Source: Lobosporangium transversale
Taxonomy: Eukaryota; Mortierellomycota; Mortierellomycetes; Mortierellales; Mortierellaceae
Assembly (NCBI RefSeq): GCF_002105155.1
Contig: NW_019029013.1
Coordinates: forward strand, 1-64,000
Length of the DNA: 64,000 nt
Reading direction: 5' to 3'
Part shown: positions 31,083 through 54,138 of the stretch, one piece after another
Numbering within the stretch: position 1 is the first letter of the stretch
Layout of the letters: every line of letters starts with the position of its first letter
Position numbers and translations under genes: made by a program
Notes under the pieces: model-generated
What the model saw: the letters and a program-made list of their open reading frames with translations, nothing else
Databases searched by the model: none
What the model was told of the DNA's origin: nothing

Positions 31083-31252
31083 TGTTACGTCCTGAGGCTA
31101 GGGAGTGTACCCAAATGGAGCACTCCCCTTTTTATTCATAGATCAGAGCAATTAGTGACGGCTATGTTGGAGCCTATATAAGGCTCCGACCTAGCTAAAA
31201 TAATAAACAACTTTTGATCTCCTTGACTTCCGATTTACCATAAAACATTTCA
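31083..31252 (+). repeat. 5' LTR
   Basis: TG..CA ends. Contains TATATAAGG (31175-31183) as a likely TATA box and AATAAAC (31201-31207) as a likely poly(A) signal, so the R region probably starts just after the TATA box. Confidence 0.95.
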
Positions 31253-31346
31253 TTTTTTCAAGGATCTACATAGAGTTACATCCATCCATTTTATCAATCC
31301 ATCCAACCATTTTTTTTTCCATAATTTCAATCCCTTTATTTCAATC

Positions 31347-34300
31347 ATGTCTAATATTAATAAAGTACCAATTAACGAAGATGTTGATATGGAAATCTCT
31401 TCACCAGAGAATGGCTCAGGCTTGACACCTGTCGAGCAGTTGAACTTATTGGTGGCTAGCCTGGTCGTAGATACGACGGAGAGTGTAGTCGAGTTCGGCA
31501 GTGATGCTGTTCCCGATATCGAGAATGTTACGATGCTTCTTCGAAGTTATAGACTTCAGAAGGAGGAGACACTCAGAAAGAAGGCATTGCTGTTCCTTAG
31601 GTACAATGATGCCAAATCAAAGTTAAGAAAAATTGACATTGATGAAAAGACACTTACCAAGGCCTTAGGCGATCTCGCTCAACAGAAGGCAGACATCTTG
31701 AAGGTCTTAGTAAGACAAACTGAAGACTTGAATAGTTCTATTGAACATATGGAGGAGGTCAGAAATGGCTTATCTTCAAGCGAGGACATTTCGATTGATA
31801 GATCGAGTGTGTCTGAAGCAGATAGTCACCGTATAACGGTGAAATGGGATCCTGCTAATCCCGAACATGACGCACTTCATCGAATCTCCAAAGAAGAGAA
31901 CATTCCTTTGATGGAAGATTCAGAAGAGGTAGACTATACCAAGGTCAAGAAGAAAACGTTTGCGGATGCGCCTATGCTTGATTTAGACGTGTCCAAGGTT
32001 CCCGGCAAGAATATGGTCAAGGAAATAGCAATCAGGGTTGTCACTTTCCGTGATGACTTTGAGAGGATATTCCGTCGTAACCTTTCTGATGTTCTTTTCG
32101 ACAAACTAGCATGGGATTACTTATCCCTCTGCGTTTCCAAAGTGTCCGGCCTGGCGCGAGACTATGACGATCTCATCAAGAAAGTGCCTCTTCAAGACAG
32201 GACCTGGTCTCGGGCAGTTACATGCTTGAATAAAGCTCTAAAGTTTGACATTCTAGGGGCTTACATCGCTGATATGGCGCTAGTTATGAGGCCTGAGAAG
32301 AATGACACTATTAGGTCGTTCGCGCAACGATTGCTACCTCTGGTTGAGGCAGCTGGAATCCCAGATGATGGCTGCTATATGCTCATCAAAGCTTTATGCA
32401 ATCATCTGTCCGACGTAGGATTTCAGGCTGTCATCAAGGAATTCGGCTCAGTGAAAAGTGTTAGCTCTTTGAAGGAGTTTCTAGAGTCCCTAGAAAAGAC
32501 ACCAGGTGCCTTAGGTGAGAAACGAACCGATGACGCCCATTGGTTTATCCAGAAGTATGGAGGAGACGCTGGAGAACAGTATTTGCGATCCATCAAGTCC
32601 AGATCGGAATACACTCCTAGAGAGGTTCCGAGATCTAGTCATAAAAGATCTCGACCTAATGCCAATCCGTCAAGTGATAGAGAAGCCAAGAAGGCTAAAC
32701 CATTCAAGGTCTGGTGTAAGGGAACGGAGAAGTGTAGGTCGAATCCGTACAAACATGCCCCGGAGGACTGTCGCTATGCTAAGGATCAAGTCAGAGATCA
32801 TTCTAAGGATAAGCCCAAGGACGTCAAGAGAACTGATGTGCGCAAGCCGCTTGCCTCAGTCAGTGCTTTTAAGAGGATTAGTGATAGTGCGCTCATAAGA
32901 GACATAATTCCGAATAAAGAATCCTTCTTTTCCTCGTACTCAATTGTTGAGAAAGCTTGTATCAAGCACCTAGGGGCTTTCAAAGGTCCCGCTCCTGGTG
33001 ATAATAGAATAGCTGTGCCTATATTTATAAACGGGCAACAATATACAGCATTGTTAGATCCAGGCGCCACAACTTCTTTGCTCAGTAAGGAAGTAGCCAT
33101 AGAGCAAGGTATTCGCTATGGTCGAGTACCAGGAGAATCTATAGCAATGATAGAAAAAGGGACTAGCACGGATAATGTCATTACTTGTGATAAAGTCCAA
33201 TTGGTCTGCAACAATAGATCTGGAGAATATCAATTGTCGGTCATGGACATTGAGTATTATGACTTCGTGTTGGGAATGGATCTCTTCGCTAGACTCGGCT
33301 TTTCCATCACGGGAATAGCCATGCCGGAGATACGAGAGGAGGAATCCCTATGGGTCCCATATGATGAAAAACCTCAAGTCATTCCGTCACAAACTCCAGA
33401 AAGAGAAAACAATGCTGAGTTCAAAGCATTGAAAGAAAAGTTCCTGTTAGCACTGGAGCCTTATTTACAGGCGAATGAAGCCATCTCGCCAAATTCATTT
33501 TGCAATCTTGATACAATGAAGGTCCAGCTAAAGGTTAAACCCACCTGTATCATCCAGGAAAGATCTCGCCCATTCCATTCGCAAATTGAAAAAGAAGAAG
33601 TGGAAAAGACCATCCAGAAGTGGCAAGAAACGGGTGTTATCGTTCCAGCACCTAAGGGGTGTCCGTATAATAACTCCCTGACAATGGCAGCACGCCGTGA
33701 CCTGGATGGTAATATTCTGAAATATAGAGTATGCCTTGATCCAAGAACGTTGAATCGTCAACTAGAGGATACTGATGTCTTCCCTCTACCATTAATCACT
33801 GATATCCAGCAGAGGGTAGCAGGGCATCTGTATTTCACCACAATTGATCTGTCTCAGGCGTATCATCGCATGCCTGTAGAGAAATCAAGCCAACCACTAA
33901 CTGCATTTACGTACGGTGGTAAGCAATATATGTTTGCTAGAGCACCTGTTGGTTTAAAACCCCTCACGAGTATCTTCCAAAGAGGAATGTCACAACTCTT
34001 AGATGATCTGCACTTTGCTGACAATTATGTGGATGACATTATTGTCTATTCGCACACAGCAGAGGATCATATTCTTCATGTCAGCATTGTCATAGAAAGG
34101 CTTACAGCTGCAAAGTTGATAATCAATAGAGAAAAGAGTAAATTCCTTAGTACAGAAGTGCTACTACTGGGGTTCATAATCAACAAAGAAGGACGCAAAA
34201 TAGATATCAACAAGGTTGCTAATGTGCATTCATGGACACCACCTACCAATAAGAAGATGGTTCAACGCTATTTAGGCCTCTTCAATTATTTTAGGGAGTA

Positions 34301-35990
34301 TATACCCTTGTACAGCTCGCTCACAGCACCTCTAGATGCCCTGCGCAATGCCAAAGGCACTTTTGATCTTAATAAGGAGCAAATGCGAAGCTTTAACAGC
34401 ATCAGATCGCTTATAGCCCAAGCTCCAGCCTTATCGTTCCCTGATTTTACTCAGCAATTCTTTGTAGCCACAGATGCCTCTAACGTAGGCATAGGAGCTG
34501 TCCTATATCAGCTACCAGGTGGCAAGGAAGATGAAACCAAGGTCAACTACATATCCTTTCAAGCCAGAGCATTGCATAAGCATGAGAAAAATTACCCAGC
34601 TTACAAGAAGGAACTCTTAGCAATTATTTTTGCACTAATGAAATTTCACCATTACCTTTGGGGAAGAAGATTTACATTATATACTGATCACAGACCTCTG
34701 ACGTACATTCATGAACAGAAGGAGTTGCCACAAATAATCCTGAATTGGAAGGCCACTCTGCTCAACTATGATTTTGAATGTATTTATCGTCCAGGCCTGC
34801 TGAACATTATTCCAGACGCATTATCTCGCGCATTTCCTGAGGAATTGTGGAAGTCTCCTAAAGAAGAACAAGTTAAATGTTCTACGAGTCGGCAGATTGC
34901 TTCTATGAGGCGAGGAACAGAGACTACCGAGAATGTTCAGGCAGCTCCACAGTCATCTAATTCGCAGCAGCTGCCTTCCACTCTACAGGTTATTGATATA
35001 ACTGCTCCTTACTCTCATCAACTTCAGTTGGAGGATGCTTCTAGAAAAATCATCCAAGATCCTGAAGAAAAGCTTCAGCATCTTCGCCTAGCACACGAAT
35101 TCGGTCATCCTGGAGGAAATGCCATGGTTACTGCTATCCATGCTAAAGGCTTTACTTGGCCTAAATTGAGAGATGATTGTCTCAAATGGGTTAGCCAATG
35201 CGGACCATGCCAAAGATTCAACATAGCTAGAAAGGGGTATCATCCTTTAACTGCCATACATGCCAGACTCCCAGGGGAACACATAGCATTCGATTTAGCC
35301 TCATTTGAAACCAGTTCCAGGGGTAATAACTACGCTTTAGTAGTGGTTGACATCTGCACAAGATTTGTATTCCTGGAGCCTCTGCCTGATAAGGAAGCCA
35401 TTACGGTGGCCAGCACCCTCTTCAAGCTATTCTGCTCTATTGGATTCCCTAAAATTATCCAAACTGATAATGGCACTGAATTCGTCAATGGAGTGTCACG
35501 TCTCATAACGCAAAAGTTGCAAATAGAGCATAGACTCTCCACGCCATATCATCCACGCTCGAATGGTGTAGCGGAGAGGTTTGTCCGCACATTTAAGGAC
35601 ATCCTCAGAAAACAACTCGAAGGCATACAGAATGATTGGGACATCCATCTTCCAATGGTTCAGCTCCAAATGAATACTAGAGTCGCGAGTCTACATCATT
35701 CAACGCCATTCTCATTATTCTATGGACGCTCATTTGCAGGACTAACGGATTTTTCCTCAGCCGAGTCACATCTCCTGTCTGAAGAAGAATTACAGAACAG
35801 ATTGGAATATCTCACCGCGTTAGTTTTCCCTGCTATCGATGATAAGAGTTCTGACACGCAAAAAAGAATGGTGGAGAAATTCAACAGGACACACAAAATC
35901 CTTCAGTTCCCACCTGGAGCGTTTGTCATGGCGAAAGAAGAATTGCCCAATGGTAAATTAGCACCTAAATACCAAGGCCCATACAAGTAG
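31347..35990 (+). CDS. Gag-Pol polyprotein of the Gypsy element
   Basis: 1,547 residues. Residues 60-145 are a coiled coil; 190-400 a capsid-like helical region; about 455-485 a Cys/His cluster (C-x5-C..H-x4-C). The protease region has LLDPGATTSLL near 569, with DPG where retropepsins have D-S/T-G. Reverse transcriptase spans about 730-910 (VCLDPRTLNRQ, YVDDIIVYS near 893-901). RNase H follows (FVATDASNVGIGAVL; LYTDHRPL). Integrase comes last: zinc-binding H..H..C-x2-C (LAHEFGHPG..CGPCQRF, near 1250-1290), then the DDE core (AFDLASF; TDNGTEF; HPRSNGVAERF). Translation stops at TAG 35988-35990 right after GPYK. An intact frame this long suggests recent activity. Gag and pol are in one frame, as in Tf1-like elements. 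Confidence 0.95.
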   Translation: MSNINKVPINEDVDMEISSPENGSGLTPVEQLNLLVASLVVDTTESVVEFGSDAVPDIENVTMLLRSYRLQKEETLRKKALLFLRYNDAKSKLRKIDIDEKTLTKALGDLAQQKADILKVLVRQTEDLNSSIEHMEEVRNGLSSSEDISIDRSSVSEADSHRITVKWDPANPEHDALHRISKEENIPLMEDSEEVDYTKVKKKTFADAPMLDLDVSKVPGKNMVKEIAIRVVTFRDDFERIFRRNLSDVLFDKLAWDYLSLCVSKVSGLARDYDDLIKKVPLQDRTWSRAVTCLNKALKFDILGAYIADMALVMRPEKNDTIRSFAQRLLPLVEAAGIPDDGCYMLIKALCNHLSDVGFQAVIKEFGSVKSVSSLKEFLESLEKTPGALGEKRTDDAHWFIQKYGGDAGEQYLRSIKSRSEYTPREVPRSSHKRSRPNANPSSDREAKKAKPFKVWCKGTEKCRSNPYKHAPEDCRYAKDQVRDHSKDKPKDVKRTDVRKPLASVSAFKRISDSALIRDIIPNKESFFSSYSIVEKACIKHLGAFKGPAPGDNRIAVPIFINGQQYTALLDPGATTSLLSKEVAIEQGIRYGRVPGESIAMIEKGTSTDNVITCDKVQLVCNNRSGEYQLSVMDIEYYDFVLGMDLFARLGFSITGIAMPEIREEESLWVPYDEKPQVIPSQTPERENNAEFKALKEKFLLALEPYLQANEAISPNSFCNLDTMKVQLKVKPTCIIQERSRPFHSQIEKEEVEKTIQKWQETGVIVPAPKGCPYNNSLTMAARRDLDGNILKYRVCLDPRTLNRQLEDTDVFPLPLITDIQQRVAGHLYFTTIDLSQAYHRMPVEKSSQPLTAFTYGGKQYMFARAPVGLKPLTSIFQRGMSQLLDDLHFADNYVDDIIVYSHTAEDHILHVSIVIERLTAAKLIINREKSKFLSTEVLLLGFIINKEGRKIDINKVANVHSWTPPTNKKMVQRYLGLFNYFREYIPLYSSLTAPLDALRNAKGTFDLNKEQMRSFNSIRSLIAQAPALSFPDFTQQFFVATDASNVGIGAVLYQLPGGKEDETKVNYISFQARALHKHEKNYPAYKKELLAIIFALMKFHHYLWGRRFTLYTDHRPLTYIHEQKELPQIILNWKATLLNYDFECIYRPGLLNIIPDALSRAFPEELWKSPKEEQVKCSTSRQIASMRRGTETTENVQAAPQSSNSQQLPSTLQVIDITAPYSHQLQLEDASRKIIQDPEEKLQHLRLAHEFGHPGGNAMVTAIHAKGFTWPKLRDDCLKWVSQCGPCQRFNIARKGYHPLTAIHARLPGEHIAFDLASFETSSRGNNYALVVVDICTRFVFLEPLPDKEAITVASTLFKLFCSIGFPKIIQTDNGTEFVNGVSRLITQKLQIEHRLSTPYHPRSNGVAERFVRTFKDILRKQLEGIQNDWDIHLPMVQLQMNTRVASLHHSTPFSLFYGRSFAGLTDFSSAESHLLSEEELQNRLEYLTALVFPAIDDKSSDTQKRMVEKFNRTHKILQFPPGAFVMAKEELPNGKLAPKYQGPYK

Positions 35991-41489: not shown

Positions 41490-41888
41490 CGACTACATCC
41501 AGAGAACTACAAGTACCCATTGAGTTCCACCCCCGCCATGGAACACTTGGATAACGCCCTTTCGTCCATTGATCTTCCCTGTGAAAACTTTTGGATAGAC
41601 AAGTAGTAATCAGGAATAGAAGTAAGTGAGAATAAGATGTGGGAACACACATCACATCCATGAGGTATTTATTCAAAATCGTATATATCTAAGTGTAACT
41701 ATAAGTTTGTCTACGGGCACCATACATAGAGTAACCACGGTGCAAACGTGAATTACTACGCCCCCACTATGTTCGCACTGTGCCCCCTGCTTGTTACTAT
41801 TTACACATGGGGCGCGTTTTGATAATCTTGTGTACAAAAACTATATTATCTTTTTACATGAATACACATATTAATTTTTATGTAACAC

Positions 41889-42840
41889 GTGTACTGTGAA
41901 ATATGCAACACCCTGAACATTCGCGAAGCCATAGCCACTGCTTTTAATCAGGCTCTCTCTACTGCCAAAGCCAACGAAGCCGCTGAGAATGACCTAGCCA
42001 GAACCCTTGCCACAATCCTTGAGCCACGGAAGCCTACGCCTTATGAAGGAGCTATTAACGCTGTTGCTGCAATAAACTTTGTCGACAGCCTGGAGGAGCA
42101 TTATACCATTGTCACTCTCACACCATCCAAATGGGTTCGATACGCTGTCCTTAGTCTCAATCGCGAAGCCAAGGCATGGTGGAGAGACTCCGGGTTGAAT
42201 CTCGATACACCTTGGGTTGACTTCCGTAAAGCGTTCCTCCGTCAGTTCACCCCTCCAGACTCTGCGAATGCAGCTCGCCGTGAGTTGGATAAACTTCGCC
42301 AAGGAAGGATGAGTGTGGCAGCGTATACGAGCAAGTTTAGAAGCCACCTACGTCTGGCTACAAATCTCGACAAAGACTCTGCTTTGCAAAAATACATGCT
42401 AGGCCTCGAGCCCGAAACAAGCAAGCAGGTAAGACTTAGACAGCCAGAGACGTTGGACGATGCCATTGAGCAGGCGACCATTATCCATAACATTCTACCT
42501 CCCGTCGATGCCACTCCTGTGTCCGCTGCCCCGAACGCCTTATCACCCATCATGAGAATAATTCTGGCCGTACACCAATGGAGCTTGATAACATGAGAGT
42601 GTTGGTTGCCAACCTTTACACCTCTTTCCATCAGCAACGACCAAACAGAAACCACTCCAGCCAAGCTCGCTACCCAAGCTCATAACAGCTGAACGAGAAC
42701 GCTGCGTCCGTGAGGGACGTTGTTTCAGATGCCGGAACCGAGGCCATAGAGCCGAACAATGCCAACTTACCTCTGTCTTCAATATAGAAAACAATGACCA
42801 TACGCTTTCTGAGTCGGGAAAAGAGGAGGGCGAGCAGTAA
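41889..42840 (+). pseudogene. Gag fragment with zinc knuckle
   Basis: The frame 41889-42596 has a retrotransposon gag core: KPTPYEGAINAVAAINFVDS, WVRYAVLSLNREAKAWW, FRKAFLRQFTPPDSANAARRE, LRQGRMSVAAYTSKFR, LGLEPETSKQVRL. Past a frameshift near 42560-42680, a CCHC knuckle reads CFRCRNRGHRAEQC. The frame closes at TAA 42838-42840. No intact start: the first codons do not look like gag. Confidence 0.8.
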
Positions 42841-42909
42841 GCCAGGCCAGCCTCGCCCCCTCTAACCTCAGCCTTCAAGCCCTGGATAACTCACAGGCAA
42901 GCAAGGTGG

Positions 42910-44430
42910 ATGGAACTGCTTCAAGAGTATGATTTCGTATTCAAGCACAAACCTGGTAAAGATAACGTCTTTCCTGATGCTCTTTCACGAAGACCTGACC
43001 TCAAGGACTTGGAGGCTACCCCTACTACTTTGAACTCGTTGGATATCAATCTGGACCCTGGCATTCGGAAACAACTGGCCAGTTGCTACCTACACGATCT
43101 AATTCTAGGTCCCCTCGTGCATCAGTACAAGGATGCTTCCACCTCGGATCGTTACTTTGTGGTTGATGGTCTACTCTGGATCAACGCTGGACAAGGCCCT
43201 CGCCTCTGCATACCAAGGACGACGGACTCCGTTCACAACTCTTGCATGACGCTCACGACGCTCCTATATCAGGCCACTTGGGATTCGATAAAACGTACAG
43301 TAGCATGCGGCGAACATATTTTTGACCACGCATGGCGAGAGATATAAAAAAATTCATTGCTTCCTGTGAACAACGCCAGCGTAACAAGCCTTCACTAAAG
43401 CCTCCTGCAGGGCTTTTCCAACCTTTGGCAATCCCAAGTCAACGATGGGATACTGTAACAATGGACTTCATTGTCAAGCTTCCGAAGACAACCAGAGGTT
43501 ATGACGCGATCATAGTCTTTGTGGACAAACTGTCCAAGCAAGTTCATTTCTCCGCTAGCTGAACTACCGACACAGCCTCTGACGTTGCACGACTCTTTTT
43601 CGACAATGTTTTTAGACTGCACGACATGCCTCGGACAATTGTATCAGACCGAGATTCGCGCTTCACTGGCAAGTTATGGACAACGTTGATGAAACTCATG
43701 GGCACCAAACTTAACATGTCTACTGCCTTTCATCTACAATCAGACGGACAAACAGAGCGTGCCAACAGAACACTAGAAGAAATGCTCCGCTCTTACATAT
43801 CGTACAAGCAAAACGACTGGGATCTTTTACTGCCTATGATGCAGTTCGCATACAACAACTCTGTTGATCCTACGACAGGTTTCTCTCCGTTCTTTCTGAA
43901 CTATGGCTACCATCCATTAGTCCCTGGATCTCTTTTAAAGCCGCCTGATACCAATGTTCCAGCTGTCAGTGATTTTGTTCGAACCCAGTCGATGAATTTG
44001 GCGCTAGCTCAGGATGGCATCATCGAAGCGCAGAATAGGCAAAAGGCTCAAGCGGACAAAACTCGTCAGGCTGCTACATTTGCTGTGGGTGACATGGTGC
44101 TCTTAAGCTCGGAAAACATCTCTGGCGCCGGACATAAAAACAGATCGTCGCAGAAACTGGAACCTGAATACATAGGCCCTTACAAGATCATTTCCAAGGT
44201 CAACGAAAACGCCTACAGGTTGGAATTACCACCTGACATGCATCAGCATCCGGTTTTTAATGCCGATCTGCTTCGCCCTACATTGAGTTATCTCGTGAAT
44301 TCGGCGGCCGCTCACCACTACGCCCTGCCCCTGAGCTTGTAGAAGGAGAGGAGGAGTATGAAGTCGACAAAATCATTGACTTCAAAATGTTTGGCAAGAC
44401 CTCTAAGCAGCTCGTTCTTTGGAAGGGCTA
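42910..44430 (+). pseudogene. RNase H end, integrase and chromodomain start
   Basis: LLQEYDFVFKHKPGKDNVFPDALSRRPDL is the C-terminal edge of RNase H. Integrase follows with lesions: a frameshift near 43230-43345, then DIKKFIASCEQ, WDTVTMDFIVKLP, a TGA at 43561, VSDRDSRFTGKLW, SDGQTERANRTLEEMLRSYI (catalytic Glu region), IGPYKI and HPVFNADLLRP. After another shift near 44300, the chromodomain start (EEYEVDKIIDFK..LVLWKGY) is cut at 44432. Clearly non-functional. Confidence 0.85.
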
Positions 44431-44827: not shown

Positions 44828-47391
44828 TTAAGAAATAAACAACTTCTTGATTTCTTTAACTTTCGTCATGTTGGCTTTTGGTAATTTTTGGGTCAAGAAA
44901 GTAGCAAGGCTCTCCAGTACAGTGTTGAGCTCAGAGTTTTCAATGATTGGGATTGATTGTACACCAGGTGTGAAGAGTGCATGGATACTTTGTATTAACC
45001 TAAGAACCTCACTGGAGGGCTTGCAATGGGGGAGTGCACGCTTCACATCATCCAGTCTGAGAACAGCACATTCTCCATCGACAATCACCGATTTTCCGAC
45101 TCCATTAAGAATTATACCAGCTGCAAAGCTCGAACCCTTAACATTGCTGTGGTTCGCAAAAGTAAAAACAGTAATTGGCTGGAACAATGTGGAATCAGTG
45201 AGTGGTCCAGAACGCCTTGACAATTGGTAAGTGTCCATCAGGTGAAACTTTGTCCTCACTTGTCGTAGTTGCTCGGTTCCCATCTGTCTGGTGATTTTTT
45301 CGCAAGTCAAGTTTTCCATCTTTTCAACTTGTTGTAGGCGCTCTTTGTCAAGGAAGATCCTGATGTACTTCGATTCGCTCTCAGAAATGTTGAAATTTTG
45401 TGTGATTCCGCCAGCTGAAATTGACTCTACACACTTGATGTCGAGACGCAAACAACTGGTGACTAAGATATCACACTTGAATGTCCCAATTACGAGGTGC
45501 TTCCCACCACTCCTTTCCATTGTAATTGGACGAACGCCAAAGTAATGGTCCTCACCGGTTGTCTTTGGCATGGATGTTTCTTTGGGAACATCCTTCACTA
45601 TCCCTGTTTGTTCATGATGAGAATCATGGAGTCTTCCTCTTCCATAGACCTCCACCTCGTTAATGAGGAGGAGTGTTTCACTCCTTGAGTTAAGGAGTAG
45701 TGTCCCTGATAACAAATGACTTGCAATATGGCAGGCCTGAGGTGTTCGCTCCCATGAAAGGTTTAATTGCTCACTCGTTGAATCTGTCAATTCCGTGAAG
45801 GACCTTTTATTGATAGCTTCCGCAAATGGCGAGTGGCGGAGAATTCCCTCGATCGATGGAGGAACTGCATCGGATCGTTCGTTCTCCTGAATTTTCCATG
45901 GAGGCAGGTATCCAGAGGCATGGACAGATTTATTGACTAAAGCAAGGACAGATGCTGTTGGGAGTGAATGATAAACTGTTTCTGAAACAAGAGCATCAAA
46001 CTCACATCCAGAGATGGATATCCCCATTGGAAATTGTCCCATTCTGTCAGAATAATACAGCATCTTTTGCTTTTCCTGTTCTGATGATGACTCCAGTCCA
46101 CATGCGTGTATCAGAGCTTCGTTAAATGGACGCCAACTCTGAGGTGGCCGAGCCGACTGAAAGGATGGGACAGGGTGGGCGTCTGAATCTCTTTTGGCTT
46201 CATACTGCGTGTAACACGATTGGGACCCGAACAAATGCTTTCGGAAGCCAGATTTCGTCTCGAATGAGGCTTTACACTCCTTGCAGTAAAATTGACCATC
46301 ACCGCTTCTTCTTATAACCAGACACCTCTTTCCCAAGGCAACAACGCCATCAACGGTATGACAATCACCGATATGGACAGTGAGCTTTCGGATAGACTCA
46401 AATGTTCGTATCTTCGAACAATAATCACACACGATCTTCTCGATCTCCTTATCATCAACGACATCATCTTCAGATCCAACATCATTACTCTCTGAAAGTA
46501 CTGTAATTGAGTCATCGTTTCTCCGTTTCTTTGAGCAACGCCTAAAGGGAAAGAAAAGACTGAATATTAGTGCGTGGACAAGCAAAAAAAAAAAAAAAAA
46601 AAAAATCCTGAGTGGACAAGACAAGCAAAATAAAAAATTAATCTTGCATGGACAAACGAAATAAAAAATTAATCTTGCATGGACAAACAAAATAAAAATT
46701 ATTCTTGCATGGACAAGCAAAATAAAAAATTAATCTTGTATGGACAAACAAAATAAAAAATTAATCTTGCATGGACAAACAAAATAAAAAATTAATCTTG
46801 CATGGACAAGCAAATAAAAATTAATCTTGCATGGACAAGCAAATAAAAATTAATCTTGCATGGACAAGCAAAATAAAAATTAATCTTGTATGGACAAACA
46901 AAATAAAAAATTAATCTTGCATGGACAAACGAAATAAAAATTAATCTTGCATGGACAAGCAAAATAAAAATTAATCTTGCTTGGACAAGCAAAATAAAAA
47001 ATTAATCTTGTATGGACAAACAAAATAAAAAATTATTCTTGCATGGACAAACGAAATAAAAAATTAATCTTGCATGGACAAACAAAATAAAAATTATTCT
47101 TGTATGGACAAGCAAAATAAAAAATTAATCTTGCATGGACAAACAAAATAAAAATTATTCTTGTATGGACAAGCAAAATAAAAAATTAATCTTGCATGGA
47201 CAAACAAAATAAAAAATTATTCTTGCATGGACAAACGAAATAAAAAATTATTCTTGCATGGACAAGCAAATAAAAATTATTCTTGCATGGACAAGTAAAA
47301 TAAAAATTATTCTTGCGTGGACAAGCAAAATAAAAAATCCTGCGTGGACAAGCAAATAACAAAGGAGGACTTCTTACATTAAACTAGCCAT
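44828..47391 (-). CDS. Two-zinc-finger protein of unknown function; intron is a minisatellite
   Basis: Two exons: 47378-47391 (14 nt, ATG at 47389-47391) and 44828-46541; intron GTAAGA..CCTTTAG, AT+G restores Met, 575 residues beginning MASLMRCSKKRRNDDS. Two C2H2-like fingers: VCDYCSKIRTFESIRKLTVHIGDCH (about 40-66) and FYCKECKASFETKSGFRKHLFGSQSC (about 85-112). The remaining 460 residues have no motif I know; patches include YYSDRMGQFPMGISISGCEFD and FAAGIILNGVGKSVIVDGECAVLRLDD. A longer single-exon reading into the repeat is rejected (see rejected items). It lies in a mobile-element region, so it could be a captured or element-encoded gene, but its long intact frame suggests it is or recently was functional. 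Confidence 0.65.
46573..47352. repeat. Minisatellite, about 26 units of 28-31 bp
   Basis: Units built on TTGCATGGACAAGCAAAATAAAAAATTAATC with small length and base changes (GCAT/GTAT/GCGT; AAGC/AAAC/AACG; ATTAAT/ATTATT). It fills nearly all of the intron of the zinc-finger gene (46542-47377). On the minus strand it can be read as a repeated short peptide, which is an artefact. Confidence 0.95.
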
Positions 47392-48480: not shown

Positions 48481-50069
48481 TTCATTCCAATGTAAATTTC
48501 TTTTTTTCATTTCTAGAAACCGTATATGCATACAACTCTCATACTTTGCTTTAATAAGCTCTCGTCTACGTCATAGGTTGTGACATTGGCTTGTCTCATT
48601 TGGAAAGCTAATGACTTTTTTGTTCATTGTATCGTTTATTTATTGGCGGATGTAATATAACAGCGATAATATTCGCTGCCGTAGTATCGACTTGAAAGGA
48701 GGGCAATCTGAGTTGATTCAATCTACCGCACCATGGAGCTTGACTAACTTGATCTTTTCCTGTACAGCTCGGCAAGACTTGATTTGTCACATCGTTTGCT
48801 TTCTCGTCTTCTTGCGTTCCCTTAATATATCTGGGTTGGTAAACACTGCTAATAGAGTTTGCTGGGCCTGTTGAAACCAGAGGGAACCACAGCAACATAT
48901 CATACCCAAGGTGATACAAATATCTCTGTTGGAGTGAATGGTGAACTGTGTGTGGTTCAAATGTAGTGGACATAAACGGCGAAAGAATGCATCGAAGGCA
49001 TGCAAACGGTTATGAGAGCAAGGAAGAAGGGGTTGGTATGCCTGTTCAAGTCCTTGGCAACAGAGCATGAGTAGCAGTTATGATCACAAGTTGATTTCGG
49101 TGAGTCAGCATAACAATGGTATAGTTTCAAGACCCTATCATCCACGCACAGCATTGCATTATTGTTGTGTTCAGACCTGGCACCAATCATGCGAGGTATT
49201 TCTTTTTCTAAGGGTTCCTTGTGTAAAACGGCCAGACAAAAAGCTTAAAAGACATACAGACACAACGGTGAAAAAATGAATGTGAGCAAACAGTTGCTAT
49301 GCTTATTTGTTGTCTGCACATGCCTTCTTTCATCGCAGGCTTTTTTTTATTGTTTCGAAAATATTTGGCAAATATTGTTTCCTTTTTTGTTCGTCAATCA
49401 CTGTGTGCACGAACATGCACCAGGTTATTGAAGTGTCTCTTTGGTTTCTGTACATGGATAAACACATTTTGCATCGCGGCGTTTTTTTTTTGTTTTCTGC
49501 AATTCCAAAACATATGCGTTTTCCATTAGTGCCTCCAGAAGAAATAAACAAACTTTATTTTGGCGGCCACTCCACAATCATGCCATGGTTATAATAATCC
49601 CTTGGAAAGGATCAAACGCGTCGGTATTAATCTCGCTTCTGTAATTCTAGATGCATATATTTTGGCGATTGGTATCAACTATCAAATTCAGACCTACACA
49701 CACCAAACGACCGCTAAAAACCACCACTCTCGCTTCTGCTCTCCCTCCATCCACAAGGCGCTGCACAATATCACCATTAACAAGGCACCGTGCACTAAGA
49801 AAGGGTGCTTAGATAGCTTTTACTCCAAGCAATAAGCGCATGCAACTACATCACTCCTATCTCCGCCATTGATGCCGAAGCCTGAGAGCTAACGAATATC
49901 TCTGCTTTAACGCAATAGTGCTGGAGCTGTTGGAGCAAAGAGCGACATCTGAACCCATTCTCTGATAAAAAAGACTTTTTTTTCTCTTGTTGTTACCTTT
50001 GACAAGGATGTAATTACTTGTTCCAAAAAACTATATGAGACAATGTTAAAATTCATCATCAATCCAGGA

Positions 50070-50078
50070 TATAAAAAG
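50070..50078 (+). promoter_or_regulatory. Candidate TATA box of the XPG-TnpB gene
   Basis: TATAAAAAG, 233 bases before the ATG at 50311, followed by a pyrimidine-rich stretch. Position is plausible if the leader is about 200 bases or carries an intron. Confidence 0.35.
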
Positions 50079-50310
50079 AGATCATTGTCTTACTCCTTTC
50101 CCGCTCGCTCACTCCAAAGTCCCATCCCTTTTACCACTGCTACTTGTTCCTGTATCTTTTTCTCAATATTCTTTATCTATTCACTATGGATCTTTAAACC
50201 ATAAAAAGCTCATTCATTTATACCTTTGTCGTTCTTTTTTTTTTCTTTTTCATTTCTTTTCATCACCGCCATTTTTCCTTTTTCCTTTCTCTTTCGCTTA
50301 GATATTGACC

Positions 50311-53300
50311 ATGGGGCTGAAGTCCTTCTTCAAACTGGTTGCGGATCGTGGGATTTTACCTTCGGAGACTGACGTGGGCACTTTCTTGGCGGCAAATCCT
50401 GACCATTCTGTTCATGTAGATCTTCTCAGTACGTTTTATTACGACATCCACCGTAGAGTCGTCCATGCTAAGATGAAAAACAAACCCAACGTTGATGTAG
50501 GAAGGTCCCTGGCTCTCGAGATAAAGGATCCTTTCATAACGGACAATCTGACTATACATATTGATGGGAGACCTTGTACTGAGAAAGAAACAGCAAGGAC
50601 AGAACGGCAAGCCATAAGACAAAAAAATATGGACGTTTTGGAGAACGATATGAGCACTTTCGAGAGAAATTCTCGGAGTGGGGTATGGATTCGCCCTCAA
50701 GTCATGAGGCGCATCCAGAAGGGTCTTTGAGATGTCCACACCCTGAGCGTCCAGGACAAGAATCAGCTGGCAACAGGCCTTGGCTCTGTCTTCGATGGCT
50801 GTCTGTGTGCAGATGAAGCGGATCCATGCATAGGGCGCCATAATGAGGAGAATGATAGGATCGTGATATCCCAAGACTCTAATTTTTTTGCGTACGAACG
50901 AGTCTGCATCCTAGTGCGACCCTTCCACACCGTAGACGGAGGTTTGGGGTTTACGATGTAGACAACGTTATCCAATCACTAAGACTGCCATCACACGAAC
51001 ATCTGGTGCTATTCTGTGCCATCGCAGGCAATGACTACTCAAGGAATCTCGAGATGTTGGGCCCGATTAATAACCTTCGATTAATTCGAAAGGTTGCACG
51101 GAGCAAGCACTACAATAGAATGCTTCGAGACTACCTAAGGGAAGCTAGTAAGGTGTTGGGAAGGGATGCAGCCTCTAAAGAAGGCCGTTTCAGAGTAGCT
51201 TTCCGCGTTTTTACTTCCGGCCATCAAACGTCTGCCCAAGCGTTATCATCGAACAATGAGTTCGATAACTTCAAGCAGCGTCTACTCAATGGAAAGGATC
51301 TTCGCCATAGAATGGCTCAGCAAAGGCGAGCGCAGCGCCGCAGAACGTAAGAAAGCTCAAGCTATAGTTTTTGTCTTGAAACCAAACGTCCCCAATACTA
51401 ATCGTTAGTCCCTTTCTCGGATATTGTAGAGACGCACTATCATTCTATATAGCGGAAGGGTCACATAGAAACCAGCTGCGGCCCATCTTTTCTGACAAGC
51501 CGAGTATATCGAATCGGCGCACAGTTGCTATCAGTAACTGCCGTAAGCACGATAGGCCGGGCCTTAAGCATCCACCACGTCGGAGAAAGGTAAAAAAGAA
51601 GCAACAGAAAAAACAAAAGCGGAAGCACAAAGACAAGAAGCCTCACAGGGCTAAAAAAGAAGGTGCACCAATTAGGAACTTGAAGGATGCTACGAAGGTT
51701 GATCACAGCTACAGCAGTAAGCACCTTATCAAGGCCTTAACAATTGGGTCCCTCAAGGCTTCCATGGCAAGGAAAGGCAGACTGGACGCAGATGAAAGGG
51801 ATAATATTGCAAGCCAGATTCGAGGGGCAGTTGTTGTCTTCAACCGACTACGCCGCTATGCATACTGGACGATTGCCTTGGACATTGAGAGGATCATGCG
51901 GCTACCAGGGGCAGCAAGGTCGAGGAAAAAGGCACTGGACGAGGTCTTGGATAGCACTGACTGTTCCTTCCGTCTCGCCACCCTTCTTTTAAGTGGTCAA
52001 GGTGGCCCCAATTCAGCTTACGCGAGGGCAAAAAACCAAGGAAGGGCGGTAGAAACGCCTCACTATCTCCTCGCTTATGAACATTTCAAGACCACCACTG
52101 AACTTTCCCCAATAAAGGAAATAGACATCACATTGGGGGACGTGCAAGGCTTTGATCCCAAAAAGCACTACAGGAACGCAATTGTATAACCTTGTGTAGG
52201 TATTTTCATGCATATTCTGCAATCAAATCTCTCTATTTAGACTCTTTTATTTTTTTATTTTTATTTTTTTTTCTAGTTTGATGTCGAGAAAACAAACGAG
52301 CGACATTGAGTTTTTTTGCGGGAGAATAAAAAAGTGAAAAAATACTCAGACTTTCCTACGTCCCCCTGCTCACCCGGGTATGTGTATCTGTCTGAACACG
52401 CCCTAGTTGACATCCTTTGGGCGAACGAAGATACCAAGCAGCTGCTGGAGCGTATTCTGCCTCCCAATAATCCCTCCAAGACTGCAATGTTTGAGTGTGT
52501 ACATACAGGGAATAAAAGGGGTTTTGATACAGGCTCTCTTTTGTGACATTGGTTCATGGATATCGAGATAAAGTATCCCTGCAGTCACAGGACAAAGATA
52601 TAACTCGGTTCAAACTCAAAGGAACGATTTCTACCAACGGTCTAGTCCTGAATCTACTTGCCTATGACACAACCCAGACGAAGAGACAGCAGCAGTCTGA
52701 CGTAGATGAAGAAGACGCCAGCCAAGAACTGGAGCTTTCTCAGGGATTTCTCAACACGATGTGTTCAAAGGCAGCCGGTGAAGTCCTGGCAGATGAAGAC
52801 TACGTAAACACAAACTGGAAGAGGAGCTCCAAACTGCTTGAAAATGTTGAGCTCACATTCAACGAGCCAGAGCGATGCCCATCCGCAAACACCACAACTA
52901 TCGTCGGATGCGATCCTGGTATGGTTAACGCCCTTACGTTTTCCTCGCTGGACCCTCACAACCCTAATTTGCGGCAAACGGTAAAGGTGAGGAGCAGGTT
53001 CTTGTACCTCCCCGTCCTCCGCTTCAATCACCTGTTGAACAAAAGGAAGCGTGAAAAAGGAATGATTGAGGTTGAGAGCGCCATCCCTGTGTTTGGAAGG
53101 GATACGTACAATAAGTACTTTCAATGGATGAACGAGGAGTCCCAGACACAGACAGGATCAAAGAATTTGGATGTGCTTCAAGAGTTCTACGAGTCCAGTT
53201 GGCACCTGAAAAAAAAATGGGACCTATGAAAGGCTCAACGAGTTACGTTCAACTACGTGGTGCAGCGAGTGTTGAAGATGCTCGGGGAAAAAGGAGTGCT

Positions 53301-53742
53301 TGTCGTCGGCCTAGGGTCCTTTGAAAGTAGTAAAGGAGTTCCCAGCAAGCACACTGCTATAACGAGACACCTTGCCACACAGGTATGACTTTTTTAAAAA
53401 AAGTAAGAAAAGCTGGAAAGCCATAGAACCCTTGCTAATAAACGACTGCCATTTGAAACGCTTAGGTCAAAGCGCGAGGACACTTCGCTGTAGGGGCGCA
53501 CGAATTTTACACCAGCGCCCACTGTCCCCGACCCCTCTGCGATAGCTTTTTACTTTTTAGAGGCGGTGTACCCTCGCTCTAAATATTGCCGGGCATGTAA
53601 GGCATTCTTCGACCGTGACGCAGTAGGGGCGGAAAACATCGCAAGAATCGGTCTTGCTCAAATTGAGAGGCAAGAGAGACCTGCAAAGTACAAGCCCACG
53701 GAAGAGTCACCTGCTCCGGCTGCAAAGCGCGCACGACGCTAG
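50311..53742 (+). pseudogene. XPG/FEN1-like nuclease joined to a TnpB/Fanzor RuvC nuclease, decayed
   Basis: Proposed exons 50311-51346, 51409-52183, 52277-53382 and 53466-53742, with introns GTAAGA..GTTAG, GTATAA..TTCTAG and GTATGA..CTTAG; about 1,060 residues. N-terminal part, XPG/FEN1-like: MGLKSFFKLV start, VHVDLLSTFYYDI, LTIHIDGRP, CADEADPCIGR, VISQDSNFF and FCAIAGNDYSRN. The second Asp of the usual S-D-S-D step is Asn. A Lys-rich linker (KKKQQKKQKRKHKDKK) follows. C-terminal part, TnpB/Fanzor: FKLKGTISTNGLVLNLL, IVGCDPGMVNAL (RuvC Asp at 52912-52914), VVGLGSF..SKGVPSKHT, AHEFYTSAHC (Glu at 53502-53504), a C-x4-C..C-x2-C zinc finger, and FFDRDAVGAENIARIG (Asp at 53617-53619). Lesions: TGA at 50728, 52307 and 53227; frame changes near 50955, 52543 and 53575. 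Fanzors are eukaryotic RNA-guided DNA nucleases. One gene or two neighbours cannot be settled here. Confidence 0.8.
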
Positions 53743-54138
53743 ACACAAGTATTTGGGTGCCGGCACACCCACAAAAAATTTGTAAGTTCTGTTTATTTTC
53801 GTCTCCTGTATCCATCCTCTCTAATCTTTTGCCCCTAAATTTCTGGACTAACTTTAAAAACCGTACAGATAACAGATAACTAAAACCAAAGTATAAGAGG
53901 ACAAGAATGGAAAAAGTTCGACTTCAACAAATAACCAAAAGCAATATAACATTTACTTTTTTTTGCGTTTACGACATATGGATATCTTTTTGTTCTTTTC
54001 TTTTATAAAAGACCAAGAGTACGTCGTGACAATATATACAAAACGAGTAAAACGATAAGGATACAAATGTAGTAAACTGTCAATGAATACTTGTATGACT
54101 GGTCAGAAGCTTTTTTTTTTCCAAAAAAAAAAAAAAAA
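53743..54138. other. Spacer between the TnpB-like gene and GID4
   Basis: About 400 bases, AT-rich, with no gene. In TnpB/Fanzor systems the guide RNA often covers the end of the nuclease gene and the bases after it, so 53650-53900 is the place to look. I see no clear conserved structure by eye. Confidence 0.4.

Follow-up and report, generated by a model that had tools for sequence, protein, structure and literature searches.

Between positions 50311 and 53742, on the plus strand, a 64,000-nucleotide (nt) stretch of Lobosporangium transversale DNA (contig NW_019029013.1, positions 1 to 64,000; the window hereafter means this whole stretch) holds a decayed gene in which a nuclease of XPG/FEN1 type is followed by one of TnpB/Fanzor type. 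The elements that a preliminary description had read from the letters, namely XPG-type motifs, a Lys-rich linker, a three-part RuvC site and zinc-finger cysteines, are all present in that order. The gene lies in a copy of a repeated element, designated family 1, which was compared by blastn with 20 other family-1 copies from the same genome (42.7 Mb in 127 contigs searched); the features of the window copy are collected in Table 1. The encoded protein, as predicted from the copies and their relatives, is approximately 1080–1300 amino acids (aa) long and begins with a 5' nuclease of the XPG/FEN1 family, from which a basic linker leads to a RuvC nuclease of Fanzor1 type.

Table 1. Features of the family-1 element copy in the window, with damage relative to the other copies
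Feature	Position	Strand	Basis or remark
Family-1 element copy	48622..53878	+	blastn against 20 copies; truncated on the left, reaches its right end at 53878
Exon 1, nuclease domain of XPG/FEN1 type (345 aa where unbroken)	50311..51346	+	In the window: TGA 50728-50730, 1-nt deletion near 50920
Intron 1 (GTAAGA...TGTAG), phase 2, between XPG and linker	51347..51429	+	Intron lengths in 19 family-1 and 15 family-2 copies
Exon 2, Lys-rich linker and N-terminal Fanzor part	51430..52183	+	60-nt in-frame deletion near 52163
Intron 2, phase 0	52184..52276	+	Copy comparison
Exon 3, RuvC-I (DPG codons 52912-52920) and RuvC-II region	52277..53382	+	8-, 1-, 4- and 14-nt indels (52297, 52310, 52500, 52549); TGA 53227-53229
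Intron 3, phase 0	53383..53465	+	Copy comparison
Exon 4, alternative glutamate GAA 53502-53504 (HEFYTS), zinc finger, RuvC-III (FDRD 53608-53619)	53466..53742	+	7-nt insertion near 53547
Candidate guide-RNA scaffold in the 3' noncoding end, with a hairpin at 53755-53770	53743..53878	+	Folding compared with family 2

The XPG exon in its unbroken form is a single stop-to-stop frame of 349 codons that continues into the intron, and 10 genome matches are open across all 345 XPG residues. Three good introns had been proposed, of which introns 2 and 3 stand, while intron 1 was given the wrong acceptor. The acceptor at 51408, previously taken to join the two halves in frame, was rejected; with it, 16 of 18 other copies run within a few codons into an in-frame TAA that L022, L028 and the window copy lack. 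With the AG that follows, at 51429, XPG and linker are joined in frame in copies free of other damage. Intron 1 is 82, 83 or 84 nt long in 19 family-1 copies, window included, and 83–108 nt long in 15 copies of a related element, family 2, in which a poly-A run makes the length variable and the exon flanks are nearly constant. The family-2 lengths are spread over the three residues modulo 3 (8, 4 and 3 copies), and a length that passes through all three frames between stable flanks is as predicted for a spliced intron within one coding sequence. Were intron 1 retained, the GTAA of the donor would supply a stop and leave an XPG-only protein, and the Fanzor part alone could then come from a start further downstream. 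Such a pair of products is very improbable: the unspliced frame does stop at the intron 1 donor in both families and the Lobosporangium gene model P0003 starts within exon 2, but the first Met in the family-1 exon 2 frame lies approximately 100 residues in, beyond conserved sequence, and the models P0001, P0002, P0004, P0005 and P0008 all run across the joint.

The contiguous reading that had been claimed for the window copy is refuted by two premature in-frame TGA codons and by six frameshifting indels among the seven exon indels found against the other copies (Table 1). A further 1-nt indel near 53209, measured against L017, was rejected since the gap belongs to L017. The broken pieces gave only below-threshold family matches in Pfam and NCBIfam scans, and the window copy, judged from its sequence, is dead, a pseudogene. 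None of the 21 family-1 copies (window counted) has an open frame across all four exons, and several are truncated; L011 is open for 984 residues up to its first stop. The breaks fall mostly at different places in different copies, which fits copying from a source that was intact. Most copies that reach far enough left begin their common sequence at 48622-48625 and end at approximately 53878, and those with a readable left end continue leftward for approximately another 200 nt, to a comparable end near TATCCCTTAAACCG; the window copy is therefore left-truncated. The right end is sharp, and the flanks there vary by copy, except in the pairs L011/L015 and L022/L023.

Enzymes of the FEN1 type cleave 5' flaps and recessed 5' ends. 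The N-terminal half had been described as XPG/FEN1-like, and in unbroken relatives this was borne out by sequence and by fold: a phmmer search of PDB sequences matched yeast RAD2 (E 1.3e-4), and an XPG profile matched archaeal FEN-1 (E 5.4e-6) together with RAD2 and EXO1. Fold prediction was run for each half separately; the AlphaFold model of the family-2 XPG half, with a predicted local distance difference test score (pLDDT) of 86.4, matched human FEN1 at E 2e-9 with a template-modelling score (TM-score) of 0.66, and the best 50 of its 334 matches were all FEN1, EXO1, XPG or RAD2. Seven acidic positions, placed as in FEN1, are invariant in two alignments (6/6 and 7/7 proteins); the sixth is N in L011 and in the window copy, which stand outside the two alignments. 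Matched to FEN1 by motif rather than by superposition, the seven positions correspond to D34, D86, E158, E160, D179, D181 and D233, which we take to be the catalytic acids of FEN1. Pfam XPG_I matches stayed below the cut-off of 24.9 bits (15.9 and 13.0), and P0002 gave no match. As read from the alignments and the model, the N-terminal half has the XPG/FEN1 fold and catalytic signature. With the XPG/RAD2 family (FEN1, EXO1, XPG/RAD2) it shares the fold, the seven invariant acids and an N-terminal Met-Gly in complete sequences; it differs in lying within a mobile-element protein, joined to an RNA-guided-type nuclease, and in being just 12–17% identical to the listed solved members.

In Fanzors, DNA cleavage is directed by an RNA that derives from the end of their own element. 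The C-terminal half is very probably a Fanzor, in agreement with the TnpB/Fanzor-like character first assigned to it. The Pfam family Cas12f1-like_TNB (PF07282) scores 33.2 bits against a cut-off of 26.3 in P0005, the homologue from Podila verticillata, and 69 times in the Lobosporangium genome, three of these matches being below the cut-off and the listed copies of both families scoring approximately 26–33 bits. Single exons or gene models scored below the cut-off in L011 (23.9), P0003 (25.3), P0006 (14.2) and the window copy (13.3), and P0002, which ends upstream of the zinc ribbon, has no match. The AlphaFold model of this half (pLDDT 60) matched Fanzor structures at E 1.2e-9 with low TM-scores; the top seven Foldseek matches were SpuFz, PpFz and GtFz structures, aligned over 410–444 residues within positions 72–749 of 758, in a comparison with the fold of the whole Fanzor1 protein (WED, REC, RuvC and TNB). 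This fold search was clearer than the sequence comparison, in which the RuvC exon alone gave chance matches only against PDB sequences and a profile of the TnpB half matched SpuFz weakly (E 0.52).

Motifs were tested on six sequences (P0005, P0009, L029, L010, L012 and L013), P0002 and P0008 ending too early. A Fanzor/TnpB motif is given by Bao and Jurka, in the part of the text available, as D-X(125,275)-[TS]-[TS]-X-X-[C4 zinc finger]-X(5,50)-RD; five of the six match it if a first knuckle of CX4C is allowed (L013 fails), and none with CX2C. According to the accessible part of PMC10711439, Fanzor RuvC-I carries DPG, which was seen by eye at RuvC-I in all six. An alternative glutamate stands six residues upstream of the zinc finger in five (HEFYTSAR-C, HEYYTSAK-C, NEFWTSAK-C, HEYFTSAK-C), and the same number match a relaxed pattern of DPG plus glutamate, L013 failing as its glutamate is replaced. 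The complete published search pattern, with a gap of 120–160 and CX2C, is matched by 0/6. The likeness to Fanzor1 proteins (SpuFz1, PpFz1, GtFz1) therefore consists of the RuvC site with DPG, the glutamate six residues before the zinc finger, the zinc ribbon, the RD and a fold that agrees across most of the C-terminal half; carriage by transposable elements is a further likeness, as far as the available parts of PMC10711439 and PMC3627910 describe it. The differences are the second nuclease of approximately 345 aa joined at the N-terminus and the CX4C form of the first zinc knuckle in families 1 and 2, Podila and M. alpina. Fanzor1 proteins are mostly 600–700 aa long, one having a 100-aa insertion (FRI) in RuvC, as stated in the accessible part of PMC11423790. 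In the TnpB OMEGA systems of IS200/IS605 and IS607, a TnpB-type nuclease likewise stands at the 3' end of a mobile element; here no TnpA was seen by eye in the element, and the protein is eukaryotic, contains introns in its gene and carries the fused XPG half.

The architecture, with both catalytic signatures, is conserved across families and genera and dispersed in many copies. At L029 lies the related element of family 2, with XPG, linker and RuvC exons in the same order; its protein is 37% identical to that of family 1 over 981 family-1 residues (exon 4 excluded) in an alignment unbroken through the joint, and the intron positions correspond, with phases 2, 0 and 0 in both. Searching with the two-family alignment found P0002 from Benniella sp. 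(1160 aa), P0005 (1260 aa) and Lobosporangium models, and the RuvC part of P0005 as query added P0008 from Mortierella antarctica (1136 aa) and P0009 from M. alpina (758 aa). P0005 is the sole complete protein among the relatives and spans both halves. P0002 and P0008 (the latter partial at both ends) contain both halves without the zinc ribbon, the partial P0009 contains the Fanzor half alone, and P0006 from Benniella has both ends with the middle missing and, as the sequence reads, is either a model error or a decayed copy. Pairwise identities among four fused sequences are 30–41% for the XPG halves and 33–42% for the Fanzor halves. In the three protein searches, which scored approximately 8000, 8000 and 1106 candidates preselected by shared words and length, no relatives were found outside Mortierellaceae, and the spread may be wider.

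The claim that a single protein spans both halves is upheld by the annotated proteins of Podila, Benniella and M. antarctica and by the exon order and intron phases of the second family. Whether the halves are always separate genes was checked among the homologues, and single proteins with both exist; the XPG-Fanzor fusion is almost certainly one protein. The contrary view, that two unrelated repeats happen to adjoin or nest, has a negligible probability. Family 1 and family 2 elements are indeed nested at one locus, but order, introns and phases are the same in two families that are only approximately 37% identical, and the single-protein homologues in three other genera already refute an artefact of this kind.

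Searching the genome with the protein of one exon gave 153 matches, of which 23 besides the window are near full length at 89–93% identity. Counting clusters of matches at approximately 60% identity or more, from a search that scored the best candidates only, an XPG cluster is followed by a Fanzor exon on the same strand in 38 of 43 cases in family 1 and in 22 of 25 in family 2; conversely, Fanzor clusters have no upstream XPG match in 11/49 and 17/39 cases, respectively. About a dozen more diverged loci have, by eye, an XPG match with a downstream Fanzor zinc-ribbon match, and L064 represents a third, decayed family with both halves, in which the seven acids and a canonical CX2C finger are seen by eye and the frames are broken. 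Several zinc-ribbon matches have no XPG match nearby, and these may be either XPG-free Fanzors or truncated copies; at L065, which may be truncated, no XPG open reading frame (ORF) occurs in the approximately 0.9 kb that separate a host gene from the Fanzor exons. A takeover by the host in some Mortierellaceae, with loss of the transposon role, would be in keeping with P0005 and P0008, which are 79% identical over 1146 aligned columns covering both halves and were each returned as one cluster on one contig. In Lobosporangium, however, the gene is plainly a dispersed repeat, and we regard such a takeover as quite improbable.

The family-2 element spans L029:1537-7893, and many copies start and end at identical places. 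Its ends are imperfect inverted repeats, GTATAGCCCGTTCCATT and, on the right side, reversed, GTATAGTCCGTCCCATT. Of the 10 copies inspected by eye, 8 could be read at both ends and showed no target-site duplication; of the other two, one is without a right end and one has a family-1 element there. No transposase-like ORF was seen by eye among those of at least 90 aa within the element, where no profile search was made. These observations would suit a role of the XPG half as the transposition nuclease, cutting branched or flap-like ends for excision and insertion while the Fanzor half picks or re-cuts sites, so that a transposase would be unnecessary. This is rather unlikely. Published Fanzor elements can be transposase-free and ride on other transposon families, according to the part of PMC3627910 available, which is why the missing transposase is not telling; moreover, XPG-less family-2 derivatives have also spread (the 17 of 39 Fanzor clusters mentioned above), though mobilisation in trans is possible.

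On contigs C33, C36, C53, C59, C85 and C87 there are short derivatives of family 2 whose internal deletions match and which lack an XPG match; they occur in several near-identical copies and likely moved in trans. At a single locus on C37 (L055 and L014), a family-2 element has a family-1 element inserted at its right terminus.

The 3' ends of families 1 and 2 are predicted to fold alike, with an outer ACAA/UUGU stem and an inner hairpin. A shared RNA structure was looked for at the 3' ends of both families and was not significant, the folding z-scores being -0.78 for 53743-53805, 0.37 for the whole 136 nt and -1.22 for family 2. The left arm of family 2 contains, in many copies, a remnant of the 3' end of another element in inverted orientation (L029:1930-2965, minus strand), in which approximately 60 nt of the 3' noncoding end are nearly unchanged and the coding part is approximately 58% like family 1. 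A noncoding block that is this nearly constant would suit a guide-RNA scaffold.

As a whole, the locus is probably best explained as a decayed single-gene transposon of Mortierellaceae that encoded one fused nuclease protein, for which RNA-guided cutting combined with flap trimming is proposed. The Fanzor half would be guided by an RNA whose transcription runs from the element's right end into the flank, and it would open and cut a matching site, e.g., the empty site or the other allele. The XPG half, held beside the cut, could then trim 5' ends, flaps or the displaced strand, after which repair would copy the element into the break. This division of labour, in which the Fanzor half cuts and the XPG half trims, is put forward tentatively; the sequence cannot tell homing into empty sites from transposition itself. 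It is unlikely, in our estimate, that this is a single-gene eukaryotic transposon that moves by RNA-directed cutting and its own end processing with no transposase.

No description of a Fanzor fused to an XPG/FEN1 nuclease was found in the open-licence literature searched, where no title or abstract among the papers listed concerned such a fusion, and a prior report elsewhere is possible. Among open-licence papers, none was found that pairs Fanzor with XPG, with a PIN domain or with Mucoromycota, or Mortierella transposable elements with TnpB. PMC11071296 and PMC12719977 each contain both 'Fanzor' and 'flap endonuclease'. In the available parts of PMC10711439, PMC10432273, PMC3627910, PMC11423790 and PMC6338049, no additional Fanzor domain appears besides the FRI insertion of PpFz1, and the Fanzors described there work on their own as RNA-guided nucleases. 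That a lineage has retained a fused 5' flap nuclease across several diverged families and in four genera suggests that its proteins also have to process the cut, a point that bears on what Fanzors do for their transposons. The fusion would, in addition, be a naturally occurring RNA-guided cutter that brings its own nuclease for trimming ends.

Elsewhere in the window, positions 31227-35990 on the plus strand hold an uninterrupted ORF of 1587 codons that resembles a Ty3/gypsy polyprotein, with protease, reverse transcriptase and integrase motifs by eye, and pieces of a second, decayed gypsy-like element were seen by eye at 41886-44342 on the same strand. A 31-bp tandem array occupies 46620-47338 (23.6 copies, 91% matches) and overlaps the beginning of a 633-codon ORF on the minus strand, whose spacing looks, again by eye, like that of a zinc finger.
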